Positions 26,422-34,727 of a stretch of DNA of 63,613 bases are shown here, piece after piece. The first letter of the stretch is position 1, and each line of letters starts with the position of its first letter. Source of the DNA: Nitrospiria bacterium (GTDB taxonomy: Bacteria; Nitrospirota; Nitrospiria; JACQBZ01); assembly GCA_035517655.1 (NCBI GenBank), contig DATIYJ010000006.1, positions 1-63,613 on the forward strand. The letters run 5' to 3'. The position numbers were made by a program, and so were the translations under genes. The notes under the pieces were generated by a model. It was not told where the DNA came from. It was given only the letters and a program-made list of their open reading frames with translations, and ran no database searches.

Positions 26422-27753
26422 ATGGTATCCACGGTGTTTCATGAGCGGCGTAACGAGTACAAAGCGATCGATTTTGGAGATCGCCGAAGGGTTCAACGGC
26501 GGCTTCAGAAAGGAGCCTTCCTGCCTGAACGGAGACGACTCATCTCTGTAGAGCGATCCAAGGAGGAGAGTTTCCCGGCGCCCCAGGTCCCGTTAGGGGC
26601 AAGGTTTGAATTAACCGGAGAACAAAAAAACCTGCAAAACAAAGTGCGGCAGTTTACCCAAAGCCAGATCGCACCTGTGGCGGCTCACTACGATCGGATC
26701 GGGGAATTTCCATGGGAGGTGATTCGCGGAGCGTTCGATATCGGAATTTTTACTAATTACATTCCTAAAAAATACGGCGGGGATGGATTGGGAGTTTTCG
26801 AGACAGCGATCGTGACCGAAGAACTCGCCGCGGGATGCATGGCGATGGGAACATCGATCATGATCAATGTTCTGGGAACGGCGCCACTTCTTATCGCCGG
26901 CACCGAAGAACAGAAAGAACGGTTTTTTATTCCTTATTGTCGTCAACAAAGATTGGTCTCGTTCTGCTTCACCGAACCGGATGCGGGGTCCGATCCAGGC
27001 CGAATTACGACCCGTGCCGAGTTGAAAGGAGACCGGTATGTTCTCAACGGATCAAAGTGCTTCATCACCAATGGGGGTGTCGCGGATTACTACGTTGTCT
27101 TCGCGACGATCGATAAGAATTTAGGAACAAAAGGCCTTACCGCGTTTTTAACCCCCTCCAGAGTAGAAGGGATTAAAATTGGGAAGATCCTGGACAAGAT
27201 GGGACAGCGGGCGGCCAATACGGCCGAGATCTTCTTTAAAGATGTCGGGGTTCCCGTTGAAAACAGAATCGGGGGTGAAGGCGAAGGATACAAAATTGCG
27301 TTGCAATCTATTTCGAAATCGCGAATTAATGTTGCGGCCGGTTCGGTGGGTATAGCGAGGACCGCCATGGAGTGCGCGTTGAGGCACGTTCATAAACGGG
27401 TACAGTTCAACCAACCCCTGGCCAATTTTCAATATGTTCATTTTCGATTGGCCGATATGGCCACCCAGATTGATGCCGCCCGATTAATGGCATGGCGAGC
27501 GGCATGGGCACACGACCAAGGCCATCGATATGCCAAGGAATCCTCCATGGCGAAAGATTTTGCCGGGGATGTCGTGATGAAGGTGACAAGCGAAGCGTTG
27601 GACCTGTTGGGCGGCTATGGTTATTCCAAAGAGTACCCGATGGAAAAATTAATGAGGGATGCCAAGCTCATGCAGATTTATGAAGGTCCTTCCCCGATTC
27701 ATAAAACGATTGTCTATAGAGAGCTGGCTAAAGAATATGGTTTATTAAAATAA
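26422..27753 (+). CDS. Acyl-CoA dehydrogenase
   Basis: This flavoenzyme family oxidises acyl-CoA to trans-2-enoyl-CoA. The middle domain has FCFTEPDAGSDPGRITTRA and NGSKCFITNGGVADYYVVFA. The C-terminal helical domain has GYKIALQSISKSRINVAAGSVGIA and LLGGYGYSKEYPMEKLMRDAKLMQIYEGPS, with the catalytic Glu in IYEG. The conserved part begins near residue 60 (FELTGEQKNLQNKVRQF). The first 55 residues from ATG 26422 do not look like the family, so the true start may lie further in. It may form an operon with the next gene (25-base gap). The substrate is unknown. Confidence 0.88.
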   Translation: MVSTVFHERRNEYKAIDFGDRRRVQRRLQKGAFLPERRRLISVERSKEESFPAPQVPLGARFELTGEQKNLQNKVRQFTQSQIAPVAAHYDRIGEFPWEVIRGAFDIGIFTNYIPKKYGGDGLGVFETAIVTEELAAGCMAMGTSIMINVLGTAPLLIAGTEEQKERFFIPYCRQQRLVSFCFTEPDAGSDPGRITTRAELKGDRYVLNGSKCFITNGGVADYYVVFATIDKNLGTKGLTAFLTPSRVEGIKIGKILDKMGQRAANTAEIFFKDVGVPVENRIGGEGEGYKIALQSISKSRINVAAGSVGIARTAMECALRHVHKRVQFNQPLANFQYVHFRLADMATQIDAARLMAWRAAWAHDQGHRYAKESSMAKDFAGDVVMKVTSEALDLLGGYGYSKEYPMEKLMRDAKLMQIYEGPSPIHKTIVYRELAKEYGLLK

Positions 27754-27778: not shown

Positions 27779-30694
27779 ATGAAAAACCAGCCGGAAGCTT
27801 TGAAGAATTACCCCAAAAACGACTCTCGGGAATACCTTCGAAGAAACTGCTACCTGCCGATTATAGAACATGAGCAAAAGACCAAACCATTTGGCAACGT
27901 CCTCAATCTAAGCACATCCGGCCTGTTCGTTGTAGCAAAAGAAGCCAAAGACCAAGCCGAGCCGTTGAAGGCGCGGTTCTTTGTCCCAAACGTCTCCGGT
28001 CCGATAAACTTCCTGGGAAAGGTGGTTTATGTAAAGAGTGAAGGGGGAGGGCAGTTTCTGGGAATGGGTGTGAGGTTTTTGGAGCTCGACGGCGAACATA
28101 AAAAGACTCTAAGGAACTATGTCTTAAATCACGGCTTCAACGAAACACTCAGCGGCTTCCAAAAAAAATCAAATTCCTCGGTACAAAATCTTAAACCTTT
28201 CAATGACCTCGGTGCCATCCAATCGATTTTTTACTCGGCAGCCCGGCAGCAGGCGGCGGTCCAGATTTTTTGGTGCCGTCATTATATTTCGGTTATGACG
28301 CTTCTTCAGGACGTCGGAAAATACCACCTGTCATTGAAACTTCCGAAAAATTCCGATCGGGATGCCGTTGACCGATACGATCATCTTTATTTGGGGATGA
28401 CTCATCAAGGCACGTCGTACTTTTTCGAAGCCACGGTCAAGTATAAAGGGAATGATTCGCTGACCATTACAAAACCGGATACGATCTATTTTGAGGAAAG
28501 ACGGGTCGAAACGCGCTATGGCAATGAACCGAACGGGGATGATAGAACCAGGGTGGAATTGCAGTTGACCCAAGACGGAGGGGCACCATCGGTTCAGCAG
28601 GTCGCTGATTTTAACTCTTCGGGTTTGTCCTTCCATATTCCCTTGGGTGATAGTTATTTCTCAGCCGGTAGAGTGATCCATGAAATAAATGTTATAAAAA
28701 ATAAAAAGATTGACCATCACGATAGCGCAACGGTAGTCCACGTCACTCCGGTCGGTCGTAACCAAGTAAAAGTGGGCCTTGAATTTCATGTTGAAAGAGA
28801 GCCATACGAGTTCAAACAGACTGACCCTCAGATTGAAAACACGGTTGAAAAATACCCCGGTATTTCACGGATAGTTAAAATGACCACAAATATTCTTAAG
28901 GTCGCGGAAAGCATTTATAGGCGATTTCTGGGCCTTCAAGACGATGTCCAATTGCTGAAGTATTCTAACGAGAAAGGTGAAAAAATCGTCGCTATCGTAA
29001 ACGCGACGTTTGACATAACCTCAACGAGTGGGAAGCGGAGCACTCCTGTTGTGATCATTCCGCCCGCGTATGCAAGAAGGAAGGAAACAACGGGGCTTTT
29101 AGCCATGGTCATCGTGGAGACTTTTCGGAAATATAAAAAGGATGTTGTCGTGATACGTTTCGACGGGATAAGAAGCATCGGTGAAAGCTACAACGACCAA
29201 GAGTGCGCACACGATGGCAAGGAAATGATTCATTATACGTTAACCCAGTTAGCGAGCGATATTGGCACGACGGTAGACTACGCAAAAAGGAACCCAGGGT
29301 TTCAGCCATCTAGTATTGTCTTAATCTCTTTCAGTATGGCGTCCATAGCGGCCAGGAGATCTATTTTGGTTAATGGACAAAAGGACATTGATTACTGGAT
29401 AAGCTGCATGGGCGCATCCGACCCGGACGACCTGATGAAGAATTCGACGGGCGGCATAGATTACTTAATGGAGTTCAGGCAAGGAGAAAAACTTTCAGTG
29501 AAGCAAGTATTAGGTCATATGGTGAATCTTGACAATTACTGCAATGACATTGAGTCGAACGATATAGCCTATTTGGAAGATGCGCGAAAAGATATGGCAA
29601 AGATAAAGATACCTGTTACATGGATTTACGGAAGATATGACTATTGGATAAATAGGAACAGAATACTTGATATCATGAGTATTAAGTCAAAAGGCCCGCG
29701 CCAGGTCCGTGAAGTGCCTTGCGGTCACATTGTCAAGACCAGTAATGAAGCGATCGAGGTTTTTAAACTAATCGTGCAGCATATTTGGGAACAGCTTTAT
29801 CATGAAAATGTTATTCCAAGCGTTCCAGCCGCGGCGGAACGGGCCGCATTTGAAAGGGCGGAATGGGCGAGAATCCGACAGAAGGAAATGGACCATAAGA
29901 ATTACTGGCGGTCCTATCTATTGGGACAAGAAAAAGGAGAAATAGGATTTGATATCATAACCTTAACAGATGAATATCATGAACTGATGGAGAAACAGTT
30001 GGCGCTTTTGGAATTAAATGAAACCGATTTGTTGATTGACATGGGTGGGGGCACCGGTAATTTCATGCAATGTTATTTGGAGTCCGAAAAACCTAAAAAG
30101 ACTTTTGGCTCGGAACGGGGTCCTAAAATTTACACAGCTGATTTTGTTAAGGAGGCCTTGCTGCGAGCGAGAGAAAAGCACAAAAGAATCATCGGTGCGG
30201 ATGTTTTCAGACGGTCGGGTTTTGGTTATGTGACAGCGGATCTTAATGTGGTCAATCCCGTATTGAAGTTGCCATTTAAGGATAACAGCCTTGATAAAAT
30301 ACTGGCGAGTTTGTTTATTTCCTACGTTAAAAACGCTCAGGGGACGCTGGAGGAGTTTTTTAGAATTCTGAAACCGGATGGAATGGTCGTTGTATCATCG
30401 CTGAAACCTGATACGGATATGTCAAAACCGATACAATCGTTGATTGATAAGATTAAAGCCGCCGATGAGCTCCCTTATTTTGAGGGTAAAACCAGGGAAG
30501 AGTTGTTGACGGCCGTGCAGTATTATATCAACACCGCCGCATACTTAACAGATCTCGAGGAAGAAAAAATGTTCAAGTTCTATAATACGGAAGAGCTGAC
30601 CCAATTACTGATAGAATCCGGTTTTAGAAATATCCGATCCTATGATAGTTTTGGCAGCCCGGCACAGGCGGTCATTGCTATTGGGTTTAAATAG
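27779..30694 (+). CDS. PilZ-PilZ-alpha/beta hydrolase-methyltransferase fusion protein
   Basis: This 971-residue protein joins four modules. PilZ 1 (about residues 15-120) has REYLRR and NLSTSG. A YcgR-like region plus PilZ 2 (about 140-340) has RRVETR and DFNSSG. Both fit the c-di-GMP-binding RxxxR plus (D/N)xSxxG pattern, the second with Asn for the first Ser. The alpha/beta hydrolase part (about 390-675) resembles LuxD-type acyl transferases or thioesterases: putative nucleophile Ser519 (SFSMA), Asp621 (GRYD) and His650 (CGH). A class I SAM methyltransferase (about 740-960) has LLIDMGGGTGNF and ILKPDGMVVVSSLKP. No signal or membrane segment is seen, so it is cytoplasmic. It sits between an acyl-CoA dehydrogenase and two kinases. 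I infer c-di-GMP control over modification of an acyl compound; the substrate is unknown. Confidence 0.8.
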   Translation: MKNQPEALKNYPKNDSREYLRRNCYLPIIEHEQKTKPFGNVLNLSTSGLFVVAKEAKDQAEPLKARFFVPNVSGPINFLGKVVYVKSEGGGQFLGMGVRFLELDGEHKKTLRNYVLNHGFNETLSGFQKKSNSSVQNLKPFNDLGAIQSIFYSAARQQAAVQIFWCRHYISVMTLLQDVGKYHLSLKLPKNSDRDAVDRYDHLYLGMTHQGTSYFFEATVKYKGNDSLTITKPDTIYFEERRVETRYGNEPNGDDRTRVELQLTQDGGAPSVQQVADFNSSGLSFHIPLGDSYFSAGRVIHEINVIKNKKIDHHDSATVVHVTPVGRNQVKVGLEFHVEREPYEFKQTDPQIENTVEKYPGISRIVKMTTNILKVAESIYRRFLGLQDDVQLLKYSNEKGEKIVAIVNATFDITSTSGKRSTPVVIIPPAYARRKETTGLLAMVIVETFRKYKKDVVVIRFDGIRSIGESYNDQECAHDGKEMIHYTLTQLASDIGTTVDYAKRNPGFQPSSIVLISFSMASIAARRSILVNGQKDIDYWISCMGASDPDDLMKNSTGGIDYLMEFRQGEKLSVKQVLGHMVNLDNYCNDIESNDIAYLEDARKDMAKIKIPVTWIYGRYDYWINRNRILDIMSIKSKGPRQVREVPCGHIVKTSNEAIEVFKLIVQHIWEQLYHENVIPSVPAAAERAAFERAEWARIRQKEMDHKNYWRSYLLGQEKGEIGFDIITLTDEYHELMEKQLALLELNETDLLIDMGGGTGNFMQCYLESEKPKKTFGSERGPKIYTADFVKEALLRAREKHKRIIGADVFRRSGFGYVTADLNVVNPVLKLPFKDNSLDKILASLFISYVKNAQGTLEEFFRILKPDGMVVVSSLKPDTDMSKPIQSLIDKIKAADELPYFEGKTREELLTAVQYYINTAAYLTDLEEEKMFKFYNTEELTQLLIESGFRNIRSYDSFGSPAQAVIAIGFK

Positions 30695-30714: not shown

Positions 30715-33516
30715 ATGGAAGATAACGCAAACAAAAAAATAAGGGAAGAATTCGAGAGCGAAACCCGTTCGCTCAGTATCGCCCGGACAAAAATTATTTG
30801 TGCATTGGCTGTGCCGTTTTTCCCGGCATTTAACGTGCTGGACTATTTCGTCACTCCTGAGAATTTCCGCTTTTTCTTGTCGTTGAGAGTGATTAGTGCA
30901 TCAATAAATCTGGTCGTCCTCTTTTTGTGTTTTACAAAGCACGCCGAGCGGCATGCCTATTTTTGGGGCGCGCTCAGCATACTGCCCATGAGTTTTTTCA
31001 TCTCGACGATGACCCAATACACCGGAGGCCATACCAGTACCTATTACGCCGGATTAAACCTGATGTTTCTCGCCTTTAGCCTTCTTATGCCATGGAGCTT
31101 AGCACGAACTCTGGGAGTGTACTTGGCCATCGATCTATCCTATATTATCCCAATAGTTTTATTTGAAAAAATTACGGCTTGGCCACTCTTTCTCAATAAC
31201 ATCTTTTTTCTCAACATGACGATGATCATTGCGGCCACGGCAACATTCTTTTCGTACAAATTGAGGCATCGAGAATTTAAGGCTCGGTTTGAGCTTAAAA
31301 GCACCAATGTGAATTTAGAGGAAACAAAGAACAGCTTGGAAAAAGCCTATGAAAAACTCAAAGAACTCGATGCGATAAAGACGAAGTTCTTCGCAAACGT
31401 TTCGCACGAACTTCGGACACCGTTGACGCTGGTGCTGGCGCCGCTGGAGTCGATGCTCAAGGGCGAGATGGGCAAGTTGGAGGGATCGCAGGAAGGGCAC
31501 GTCCGGATCATGTACCAGAATTCGCTGCGGCTGCTCAAGATGATCAACAATTTGTTGGACCTGGCCAAGATCGATGCCGGCAAAATGAAGCTGACCCTCG
31601 ACCAGGTGAATCTGACCGAGTTTATCCGAGGCATCGTGGCCTCCGTGTCCCCGATGGCCGAGAAGAAACAGATACGGCTGTCGTTCACAAACGGCGATCA
31701 CCTGCCGGACATGGCATGCGATAAGGAAAAGATCGAGAGGATTCTTTTAAACTTGATCTTCAATTCGCTTAAATTCACCGATCCGGGCGGAACCGTAACC
31801 GTCCGGTGCGGACTGACCCGGCTCGAGGATGAAAACGGGCAAGGCGACCGTTTCCTCGTTTCGGTCACCGACACCGGGATCGGATTCCCGAAAGAATACC
31901 GCACCAAAATCTTCGAGCGGTTCTCCCAGGTGGACGCCTCCGCCAGCCGGAAGTACGAAGGCTCCGGGATCGGTCTGGCGTTGGCGAAGGAAATGGTCGA
32001 ACTCCACCACGGCCGGATCTGGGCCGACAGCGAGCCCGGGAAGGGAACCGTCATGACCTTTACGCTGCCGATGGACCTCAAGCTGTCGGAGCCGGAAAGC
32101 TCAACGGAGGATCGTCGGGCGGCCAACCGCCGCGCGCGGGAGCGACGGGAGAGCGAGGGGCGCCGTTCGGAGGATTGGACGCGGGCCATTCACACCGCGG
32201 CAGAATATTCTGCATCGGATATATTGAAAGAGGGCGCCGATGTCCCGATGCCGGCTCCGGCCTTGTCGGAGTCCAAGGACCATACCGTTCTCTTAATCGA
32301 GGACAACGCCGACATGCGAAGCTTCATCGTCTTCCAACTCCAGGAAGCGTTCAATCTGATCCAGGCCCGGGACGGGATCGAGGGCGTTGATCTGGCCGTC
32401 CGACACCATCCGGATCTCATCATTTCGGACGTCATGATGCCGGGCAAGGACGGCTATCAGGTCTGTCGGGAGATCAAAGCGGATCCCCATACCCGCCATA
32501 TCCCGGTCATCCTCCTGACGGCGAAGGCCGAGCTCTCTGAAAAGATTTCAGGATTGGAGTACGGCGCGGACGACTATCTGACCAAACCGTTCAACGCGCA
32601 GGAGCTTAAGGCCAAAATCCGGTCGTTGATACAGCTTCGTCGTCTGGAACGCGAGATCCAAAATAGGAGTGAGGAACTGGAACGCACCCTGAAGATGCTT
32701 CAAGAAACCCAGACCCAACTCGTCCATTCGGAAAAGATGGCGGCGCTGGGACTGCTCGTCGCCGGCATCGCGCATGAGGTGAACAATCCCGTGAGTTTCG
32801 CAAAGGGCAGCCTCTCCAATCTCCGACGTTACCTGGGCCAGGTGCGCGACGCGCTGGAACGGCAGCCGGAAACACGTCACGTGCTGCTCCAGTTCAACAA
32901 ACTTCTTCAGGACATCGAGCAATCCCTCAATATTGTCAAGGCCGGCTTGGACCGTACGGAGGGAATCGTGACGGACCTTAAAACCTTTGCCCGAAAAGAC
33001 GAACAGCACACCAAGCGGGTCGATGTTCAAGACGGCTTGGAGGCCACGATTAAGCTGATCCAGCACGAAATGGCGGAACGGATCACGTTGCACCGTGACT
33101 ACGGCATCCGGGAGGCGGTTGAAATCATCCCGGGGCAGATCAACCAGGTCTTCATGAACCTGCTTCAAAACGCGATTCATGCCATTCCGGGAAAGGGCGA
33201 CATTTGGATACGCTCCTGGGAAGACGCGGACCGGGTTTATATCGCGGTCCGCGATAACGGGGCCGGGATAAAAAAAGATCATCTGGGTCGGATCTTCGAG
33301 CCGTTCTTCACCACCAAAGCGGTGGGTCAAGGCACAGGTCTGGGTTTGTCGGTCAGCTACCGGATCATCGAGAACCACGGCGGGAAGATCGAGGTCAGCA
33401 GCGAAGAGGGAAAGGGCGCCGAGTTTGTCGTCACGCTCCCCAAACGTCAGCCGGCGAACCCGCCGACCGCCGGGATTTCTTCCGAACCGGCATCGAGTAA
33501 AGGAGACGCGCGATGA
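30715..33516 (+). CDS. Hybrid sensor histidine kinase with two kinase cores
   Basis: The 933-residue product has about six membrane helices in the first 180 residues with almost no periplasmic domain. A coiled linker leads to kinase core 1 (His231 in FANVSHELRTP, N box LLNLIFNSLKF, VTDTGIGF, GSGIGLAL). Next come an Arg/Glu-rich linker (465-490), a receiver domain (Asp572 in SDVMMPGKDG, Lys in TKPF), and kinase core 2 (His687 in GIAHEVNNP, LLQNAIHA, VRDNGAGI, GTGLGLS). All catalytic motifs of both cores are intact. It follows the PilZ fusion by 20 bases and overlaps the next kinase gene by 4 bases. The membrane part probably senses a hydrophobic or membrane signal (inference). Confidence 0.9.
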   Translation: MEDNANKKIREEFESETRSLSIARTKIICALAVPFFPAFNVLDYFVTPENFRFFLSLRVISASINLVVLFLCFTKHAERHAYFWGALSILPMSFFISTMTQYTGGHTSTYYAGLNLMFLAFSLLMPWSLARTLGVYLAIDLSYIIPIVLFEKITAWPLFLNNIFFLNMTMIIAATATFFSYKLRHREFKARFELKSTNVNLEETKNSLEKAYEKLKELDAIKTKFFANVSHELRTPLTLVLAPLESMLKGEMGKLEGSQEGHVRIMYQNSLRLLKMINNLLDLAKIDAGKMKLTLDQVNLTEFIRGIVASVSPMAEKKQIRLSFTNGDHLPDMACDKEKIERILLNLIFNSLKFTDPGGTVTVRCGLTRLEDENGQGDRFLVSVTDTGIGFPKEYRTKIFERFSQVDASASRKYEGSGIGLALAKEMVELHHGRIWADSEPGKGTVMTFTLPMDLKLSEPESSTEDRRAANRRARERRESEGRRSEDWTRAIHTAAEYSASDILKEGADVPMPAPALSESKDHTVLLIEDNADMRSFIVFQLQEAFNLIQARDGIEGVDLAVRHHPDLIISDVMMPGKDGYQVCREIKADPHTRHIPVILLTAKAELSEKISGLEYGADDYLTKPFNAQELKAKIRSLIQLRRLEREIQNRSEELERTLKMLQETQTQLVHSEKMAALGLLVAGIAHEVNNPVSFAKGSLSNLRRYLGQVRDALERQPETRHVLLQFNKLLQDIEQSLNIVKAGLDRTEGIVTDLKTFARKDEQHTKRVDVQDGLEATIKLIQHEMAERITLHRDYGIREAVEIIPGQINQVFMNLLQNAIHAIPGKGDIWIRSWEDADRVYIAVRDNGAGIKKDHLGRIFEPFFTTKAVGQGTGLGLSVSYRIIENHGGKIEVSSEEGKGAEFVVTLPKRQPANPPTAGISSEPASSKGDAR

Positions 33517-34727
33517 AGCCGTTGTTGCGAACAGAAGAGTACCTGCGCTTCCCCATCCTCTATGTCGACGATGAGCCGCTGGCTTTGGAAACGTTCCGCC
33601 TCCAGTTCAAAGAAGACTTTACCATCCATACCTCCCAGAACGGGGAAGACGCGCAACGCATCCTGCGGGAAAACGAAATCGCCGTCATCTTGACGGATCA
33701 GCGGATGCCGCAGACCACCGGGGTCGAACTCTTAAAGCAGGTGAAAGAGCACCATCCGGACACCGTGCGCATGTTAATGACGGCCTACTCCGATATGGAT
33801 GTCGTGATTGAGGCGATCAACGAAGGGAACGTTTATCGGTACGTAACCAAGCCCTACAACGAAGACGACCTGCGGAACACGATTCGCCAGGGGATCGACA
33901 CCTACTATTTGATTCGAGAACGGGAGCGGCTCGAGGCCGAGAAGATTGAAACCGCGAAGCGCATGGCCCGGGCCAACCGGCTGTCCGCGGTCGGGACCTT
34001 GGCGGCCGGAATGGCCCACGAGATCAACAATCCCTTGACCGCGGTGAGCGCTTTTCTCCAGATGCTCCCGCAAAAATATGACGAGAGTTCCCGGGACAGG
34101 GAGTATTGGGATCAGTTCTACCGAAGGGTGTGCGAGGAGTTGGATCGTATCCACAACCTCATTACGCGGATGCTTCGATACTCGCGGTTCACGGGGCAGG
34201 AGGAGTATAATTTTCAGGAAACGCACCTGAACGAGCTTTTGGAAGACATGGTCGCGCTTCTGGTGCCGGAAGCCAAAAAGAAACTGAACGTTTTCAAGAA
34301 AGATTTTGATCCCGCTCTTCCAACCGGGTGGATGGATCAGGAACGCATGAAACAGGTCTTCATGAACCTGTTATTAAATGCGATCCAGGCCACGGAACGG
34401 GGAACGATCACGGTCCGCAGCCGTCGGGTTTCGCAAGGGTCCGACCGAACGGCACTGGAGGTGGCCGTCATCGACACCGGGTCCGGAATCGCGGAAGAGC
34501 ACCTCCCGAAACTCTTTGATCCATTTTTCACGACCAAACATCATGAAGGCAGCGGCCTCGGCCTGTTGACCTGTCATCAGATCATTGAGGCCCACCGCGG
34601 ATACATTGACGTGCAATCCCAACCGGGAAAAGGGTCCACCTTCACGGTCGTCATCCCCCTCAACCCCCAAGAGCACGACCGTCGGGTCAGCGACCGCCGA
34701 AACGAGCCGGATGAGGTCTCGATCTAG
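33513..34727 (+). CDS. Response-regulator-type histidine kinase (REC-HisKA-HATPase)
   Basis: This soluble 404-residue protein has an N-terminal receiver domain with Asp62 (ILTDQRMP) and Lys in VTKPY, a coiled linker, and a kinase core with His169 (GMAHEINNP), MNLLLNAIQA, VIDTGSGI and GSGLGL. It overlaps the preceding hybrid kinase in an ATGA arrangement, so the two are translated together and probably form one phosphorelay. No output domain or separate regulator is encoded next to them. The PilZ fusion protein upstream is the nearest candidate for a linked function. Confidence 0.9.
   Translation: MKPLLRTEEYLRFPILYVDDEPLALETFRLQFKEDFTIHTSQNGEDAQRILRENEIAVILTDQRMPQTTGVELLKQVKEHHPDTVRMLMTAYSDMDVVIEAINEGNVYRYVTKPYNEDDLRNTIRQGIDTYYLIRERERLEAEKIETAKRMARANRLSAVGTLAAGMAHEINNPLTAVSAFLQMLPQKYDESSRDREYWDQFYRRVCEELDRIHNLITRMLRYSRFTGQEEYNFQETHLNELLEDMVALLVPEAKKKLNVFKKDFDPALPTGWMDQERMKQVFMNLLLNAIQATERGTITVRSRRVSQGSDRTALEVAVIDTGSGIAEEHLPKLFDPFFTTKHHEGSGLGLLTCHQIIEAHRGYIDVQSQPGKGSTFTVVIPLNPQEHDRRVSDRRNEPDEVSI

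Follow-up and report, generated by a model that had tools for sequence, protein, structure and literature searches.

A PilZ–LuxD–methyltransferase fusion encoded beside a membrane sensor in Nitrospirota: a candidate c-di-GMP-gated synthase of a fatty-acid-derived signal

LuxD, the myristoyl-ACP thioesterase of Vibrio (structure 1THT, Pfam family PF02273), is a free-standing protein that supplies the LuxCE fatty acid reductase. The BcsA cellulose synthase is a PilZ effector with an enzymatic domain, while YcgR of Escherichia coli combines a PilZN and a PilZ domain. In Ralstonia, a 3-hydroxy fatty acid methyl ester is produced by PhcB and sensed by PhcS (PMC8578825, PMC6989110). In this study, we analyzed a 63,613-nt stretch of a Nitrospiria bacterium genome (contig DATIYJ010000006.1, hereafter the window), in which one gene encodes PilZ-type, LuxD-like hydrolase and S-adenosyl methionine (SAM)-dependent methyltransferase domains. 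The features of this locus, together with four large paralogues from relatives, are collected in Table 1.

The closest worked-out analogue is the PhcB-PhcS-PhcR system, to which the locus is likened by gene order and proposed product, with no claim made for or against homology. In both cases, a methyltransferase gene is followed by a gene of a sensor histidine kinase and then by a response regulator gene, and the Phc system yields a fatty acid methyl ester, as is proposed here for the fusion. The two differ in that the Phc reports consulted mention no PilZ domain in PhcB (PMC8578825, PMC6989110), and in that the window operon contains an acyl-CoA dehydrogenase gene. Moreover, phcB comprises at most about 470 codons, as judged from mutation coordinates (PMC6989110), and is thus shorter than even the bare LuxD-methyltransferase core of the family described below (about 550 codons).

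Table 1. Features of the analyzed locus (positions in the window) and of the large Nitrospira paralogues (positions in the respective loci)
Feature	Position	Strand	Remarks
Acyl-CoA dehydrogenase, first gene of the putative operon	26422..27753	+	25 bp gap to the fusion gene
Fusion of PilZ, aa 125-235 stretch, PilZ-like domain, LuxD-like hydrolase and SAM methyltransferase	27779..30694	+	971 aa
PilZ domain 1, aa 16-116	27824..28126	+	Pfam 50.8 bits alone; motifs invariant in 4 orthologues
Beta-rich stretch, aa 125-235	28151..28483	+	low-confidence beta strands in the model
PilZ-like domain 2, aa ~238-345	28490..28813	+	homology to dehydrogenase domain (G005/G125); tandem PilZ alignment
Predicted LuxD-type alpha/beta hydrolase, aa 392-680	28952..29818	+	profile, fold, triad
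S519 codon	29333-29335	+	predicted catalytic triad
D621 codon	29639-29641	+	predicted catalytic triad
H650 codon	29726-29728	+	predicted catalytic triad
Class I SAM-dependent methyltransferase, aa ~740-960	29996..30658	+	Pfam, SAM motif
Membrane hybrid histidine kinase	30715..33516	+	HisKA-HATPase-receiver-second HATPase; 20 bp after the fusion gene
Response regulator receiver with C-terminal HisKA-HATPase	33513..34727	+	4-bp overlap with the kinase gene
~1,400-aa paralogue (N. defluvii)	L132:4253-8512		followed by a histidine kinase gene
~1,400-aa paralogue	L133:3767-8011		followed by a histidine kinase gene
~1,400-aa paralogue	L134:4033-7755		followed by a histidine kinase gene
~1,400-aa paralogue	L135:6093-10328		followed by a histidine kinase gene

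The fusion gene is an open reading frame with an ATG start and 971 open codons. Full-length counterparts of its product were found in only three other genomes among the 270 of the host's class. Identity is 67% in a genome of the same genus, 55% within the family and 42% in another family, and these counterparts speak against a chance fusion. All four genomes have the genes in the order acyl-CoA dehydrogenase – fusion – hybrid kinase – receiver-kinase, a further indication that the fusion is real and maintained. This confirmed that the four-part fusion gene is a genuine, evolutionarily conserved entity and not a product of chance; of the original prediction of two PilZ modules followed by a hydrolase and a methyltransferase, the first PilZ module, the triad and the SAM motif were recovered, the second PilZ module with weaker support. 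The four-gene arrangement, judged from gene spacing and order, looks like an operon.

Within the N-terminal part, the assignment of the first PilZ domain is solid. In the full protein, Pfam recovered it at aa 17-116 (E 9e-16, in two stretches), with both the RxxxR (R17..R21) and NxSxxG (N43-S45-G48) motifs. The second module is weaker: on its own, it gave no Pfam match above the cut-off. Its RxxxR motif (R242..R246) is invariant, and its second motif, D277-x-N-x-x-G282 (DFNSSG), carries Asn where the canonical (D/N)xSxxG has Ser. These motifs align with the second of the tandem PilZ domains in Nitrospira relatives, the corresponding profile comparison being weak (probability 3%). Better support for its PilZ-like nature comes from the N-terminal domain of the acyl-CoA dehydrogenases of the orthologous loci in genomes G005 and G125, to which the module is homologous by phmmer (E 5e-11 and 7e-9). 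AlphaFold modelled the N-terminal 391 aa too poorly (pLDDT 48) to bring out a PilZ2 barrel, and no PilZ entry came up when the PDB was searched with the N-terminal profile.

The two PilZ modules are, moreover, separated by about 110 aa (aa 125-235), so the earlier description of two such domains in a row was slightly simplified. This stretch has no Pfam match. A beta-rich segment ahead of a PilZ-like domain resembles the arrangement of E. coli YcgR, and a YcgR-N-like barrel was considered for it; hhalign of aa 125-345 against YcgR gave no profile match, and the model of aa 125-235 is poor. The fusion shares with BcsA-type effectors a PilZ domain joined to an enzyme as a putative c-di-GMP switch, whereas it differs from them in its enzymatic output and in the missing canonical Ser of its second module. 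The motifs of the first PilZ domain suggest that the fusion may bind c-di-GMP; since 29 GGDEF matches were found in the genome, this nucleotide is likely made in the host.

Pfam detected no domain in the window hydrolase, while PF02273 was recognized (at a threshold of E 0.001) in 37 of the 38 cores compared, but not in that of the window. A profile built from 21 family cores matched LuxD (1THT) over the whole domain (E 8e-38) with the triads aligned, and 1THT was also the best PDB fold match (E 2.5e-12, TM by target 0.77-0.80) of the AlphaFold model of the window core (pLDDT 83.5, pTM 0.80). The residues named previously as the Ser519-Asp621-His650 triad proved exact: they are conserved across the 21 family members, and in the wider set of 38 cores, 34 retain Ser and 37 retain Asp, and His, as read from the motifs, is missing from about one. 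On profile and modelled fold, the hydrolase is predicted to be an acyl-ACP thioesterase of the LuxD type, albeit a divergent one. It resembles LuxD in fold, positions of the triad and sequence profile, but is joined to a methyltransferase and PilZ modules and paired with a sensor kinase. The methyltransferase itself was recognized by Pfam (E 8e-10), and the SAM-binding motif, also noted earlier as intact (DMGGGTG, i.e., D-x-G-x-G-x-G, aa 754-760, positions 30038-30058), is invariant in all 38 cores. The best NCBIfam matches of this domain are UbiE/MenG, far below the cut-off.

Scanning of genome contigs with the single window protein gave no match; an alignment-based scan, in turn, found family members, and 64 named loci were identified with the core as a query. 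The LuxD-methyltransferase core is present in 94 of the 396 sampled Nitrospirota genomes, in at least one copy each. Its hosts are Nitrospira (including N. defluvii, with one or two copies per genome in this genus) and other Nitrospirota, as well as metagenome-assembled genomes (MAGs) labelled Omnitrophota, Opitutaceae, Nitrospinota, Deltaproteobacteria and Proteobacteria; among 395 sampled genomes of the phylum to which the host of locus L116 belongs, no further member was found. Plasmids and phages searched with the window protein yielded no relative, and the bare core matched one plasmid LuxD (E 8e-19).

In all members examined, both catalytic domains are fused, which may be taken as support for the earlier proposal that the two enzymes act on one small-molecule product. 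The N-terminal modules vary: PilZ was found in 27 of 51 proteins, PAS in four and START/polyketide-cyclase-like domains in two, many having no known domain, and eight loci are devoid of any N-terminal module. With the catalytic pair constant and the N-terminal module variable, regulation is modular and the LuxD and methyltransferase domains form the unit, and since several members have no PilZ domain, the c-di-GMP input is optional for the family. In an Omnitrophota enzyme (L056:7455-9635), a polyketide-cyclase/START-like N-terminus replaces PilZ. The PilZ-PilZ-LuxD-methyltransferase order recurs in Nitrospira and relatives, so it is not confined to the window protein. In keeping with the original prediction, which knew of no described enzyme with this order, no description of this architecture, or of the enzyme–sensor pairing, was found in the open-licence literature, which does not in itself prove novelty.

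Besides the catalytic pair, its neighbor is a constant feature of the family. The next gene downstream, in the same orientation, encodes a protein whose 7TM input domain (Pfam HisKA_7TM where tested) usually precedes GAF and histidine kinase domains. Where 1.2 kb or more of sequence was available beyond the core (51 loci), such a sensor was present directly downstream in 45, and likewise, on inspection, in L083; reciprocally, 54 of the 57 ORFs with a 7TM domain in 848 kb of relatives' DNA directly adjoin the enzyme downstream on the same strand. The 7TM input is constant and the output varies, being a histidine kinase and, in one case, GGDEF (locus L060, E 2e-40). In that locus (L060:7080-12237, bacterium Cli_8), an enzyme with the PilZ-START-LuxD-methyltransferase arrangement is encoded beside the 7TM-diguanylate cyclase, and the two could possibly constitute a closed c-di-GMP loop. 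A single 1,666-aa ORF of another genome (L093, G297:C43) comprises PilZ-PilZ-LuxD-methyltransferase and a 7TM histidine kinase; as it comes from one MAG, this fusion may be an assembly error.

While most relatives thus have a partner sensor of the HisKA_7TM (PF16927) type, the window kinase and its orthologues carry a MASE8-like membrane domain instead. This domain has about six TM segments with weak similarity to MASE8. The kinase is conserved in genomes G002, G005 and G125, and in the same three genomes orthologues of the receiver-kinase occupy the same place. The kinase and receiver domains of the window kinase are joined by an Arg-rich linker (EDRRAANRRARERRESEGRR), and the ERR/DRRR-rich N-terminus of the acyl-CoA dehydrogenase is similar to this linker. 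The dehydrogenase possesses the IYEG motif with the catalytic Glu. Two of its relatives bear an N-terminal PilZ-like domain (L035:10891-12393 and L036:11815-13305), which in the window and in G002 is cut down to a basic remnant of about 60 residues. In G005, this domain contains a DISQTG motif and its Pfam PilZ match is sub-threshold (E 0.13). Given the homology of this domain to PilZ2 in G005 and G125, both operon enzymes carry the same PilZ-like domain there.

The reading that we prefer, and to which we would assign nearly an even chance, is that the fusion synthesizes, under c-di-GMP gating, a diffusible signal derived from fatty acids, which the neighboring kinase reads. The LuxD-like domain would cleave an acyl thioester (acyl-ACP or acyl-CoA) to the free acid; in the window, the acyl substrate would perhaps be 2,3-desaturated beforehand by the co-encoded acyl-CoA dehydrogenase. 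The fused methyltransferase would then modify the free acid, most simply to a methyl ester, and the membrane kinase of the next gene would perceive the product and signal via the receiver-kinase that the fourth gene encodes. Through the PilZ domains, c-di-GMP would turn signal production on or off. The LuxD similarity and the acyl-CoA dehydrogenase point to a fatty acyl substrate class, and the methyl ester is presumably the simplest product, carboxylate methylation being a property not readable from sequence. Perception of the product by the adjacent kinase is deduced from their association.

This proposal is motivated by the fact that the enzymatic half is almost always found beside a membrane sensor, and so probably makes a fatty-acid-derived signal that this sensor detects. 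A catalytic pair and an adjacent sensor that both stay constant, while the regulatory input varies, agree with an enzyme producing the sensor's ligand, and the LuxD-type thioesterase, the methyltransferase and the window's acyl-CoA dehydrogenase fit a ligand derived from fatty acids; the START-like lipid-binding domains of two family enzymes are also counted in favor of a lipid signal. The original prediction of PilZ input, acyl hydrolysis and methylation holds in these three elements but missed the strict sensor link, the PilZ-like domain of the dehydrogenase and the PilZ-less members, which together argue for signal synthesis and not for an isolated metabolic enzyme. On the other side, adjacent genes can share regulation without any ligand–receptor relation, the window hydrolase is divergent, and the membrane domain of the window sensor is unlike the 7TM domain of its relatives.

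The neighborhood could also be that of an ordinary lipid or quinone tailoring enzyme, acting on membrane lipids or a menaquinone-like compound, in which case the kinases would regulate it or monitor the state of the membrane. The UbiE/MenG similarity of the methyltransferase and the neighboring acyl-CoA dehydrogenase are in line with this, yet we regard it as unlikely: the linkage to the sensor, which includes an enzyme–sensor fusion, is far stricter than expected of a typical metabolic gene, and the family, despite its one or two copies in Nitrospira, is absent from most of the phylum sample and therefore does not belong to core metabolism. The close association with a membrane sensor, once in a single chain, and the union of a methyltransferase with an esterase-type triad in one protein would also suit a chemotaxis-like adaptation system, in which the neighboring sensor is methylated by the methyltransferase and demethylated by the hydrolase, as a methylesterase, with no diffusible molecule involved. 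This we consider quite improbable, because the hydrolase is closest to acyl-ACP thioesterases and not to CheB, the methyltransferase matches UbiE/small-molecule families and not CheR, and the dehydrogenase of the window and the START-like domains of relatives fit a lipid substrate.

A different role is suggested by the large Nitrospira paralogues (Table 1), which begin with a receiver/PAS-like N-terminus and continue through a degenerate kinase-like stretch and two PilZ-like segments to the same core (the domain names other than those of the kinase and the core were assigned by eye from the sequence). In all four examined, the nucleophile Ser is replaced by Asp; it is also lost in L088, L091, L104 and L111, whose sensor partners are unusual, missing or past the contig end. 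The replacement suggests that the ~1,400-aa protein may be an enzyme turned sensor, which would fit a ligand-sensing theme. These proteins speak for the view that the enzymatic half binds or destroys an acyl signal, by quorum quenching or as a pseudo-enzyme, and informs the kinase. As an explanation of the locus it seems quite unlikely, since the window protein and most relatives retain the full triad and the SAM motif.

If the fusion is indeed a signal synthase, the locus may represent an undescribed class of cell-cell signalling, widespread in nitrite-oxidizing and related Nitrospirota, in which a c-di-GMP-controlled LuxD-methyltransferase synthase is combined with a dedicated 7TM or MASE8-like receptor kinase and, once, with a diguanylate cyclase receptor that would close the loop through c-di-GMP. 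We put this forward tentatively, as a possibility somewhat short of an even chance. Were it true, a protein family found in about a quarter of the sampled Nitrospirota genomes would gain a function and a partner, and c-di-GMP would be linked to lipid-signal synthesis at the level of the enzyme. Nitrospira and their relatives are slow-growing nitrifiers, whose communication biology is little known, and their signalling would then become directly testable from a defined enzyme–receptor pair.
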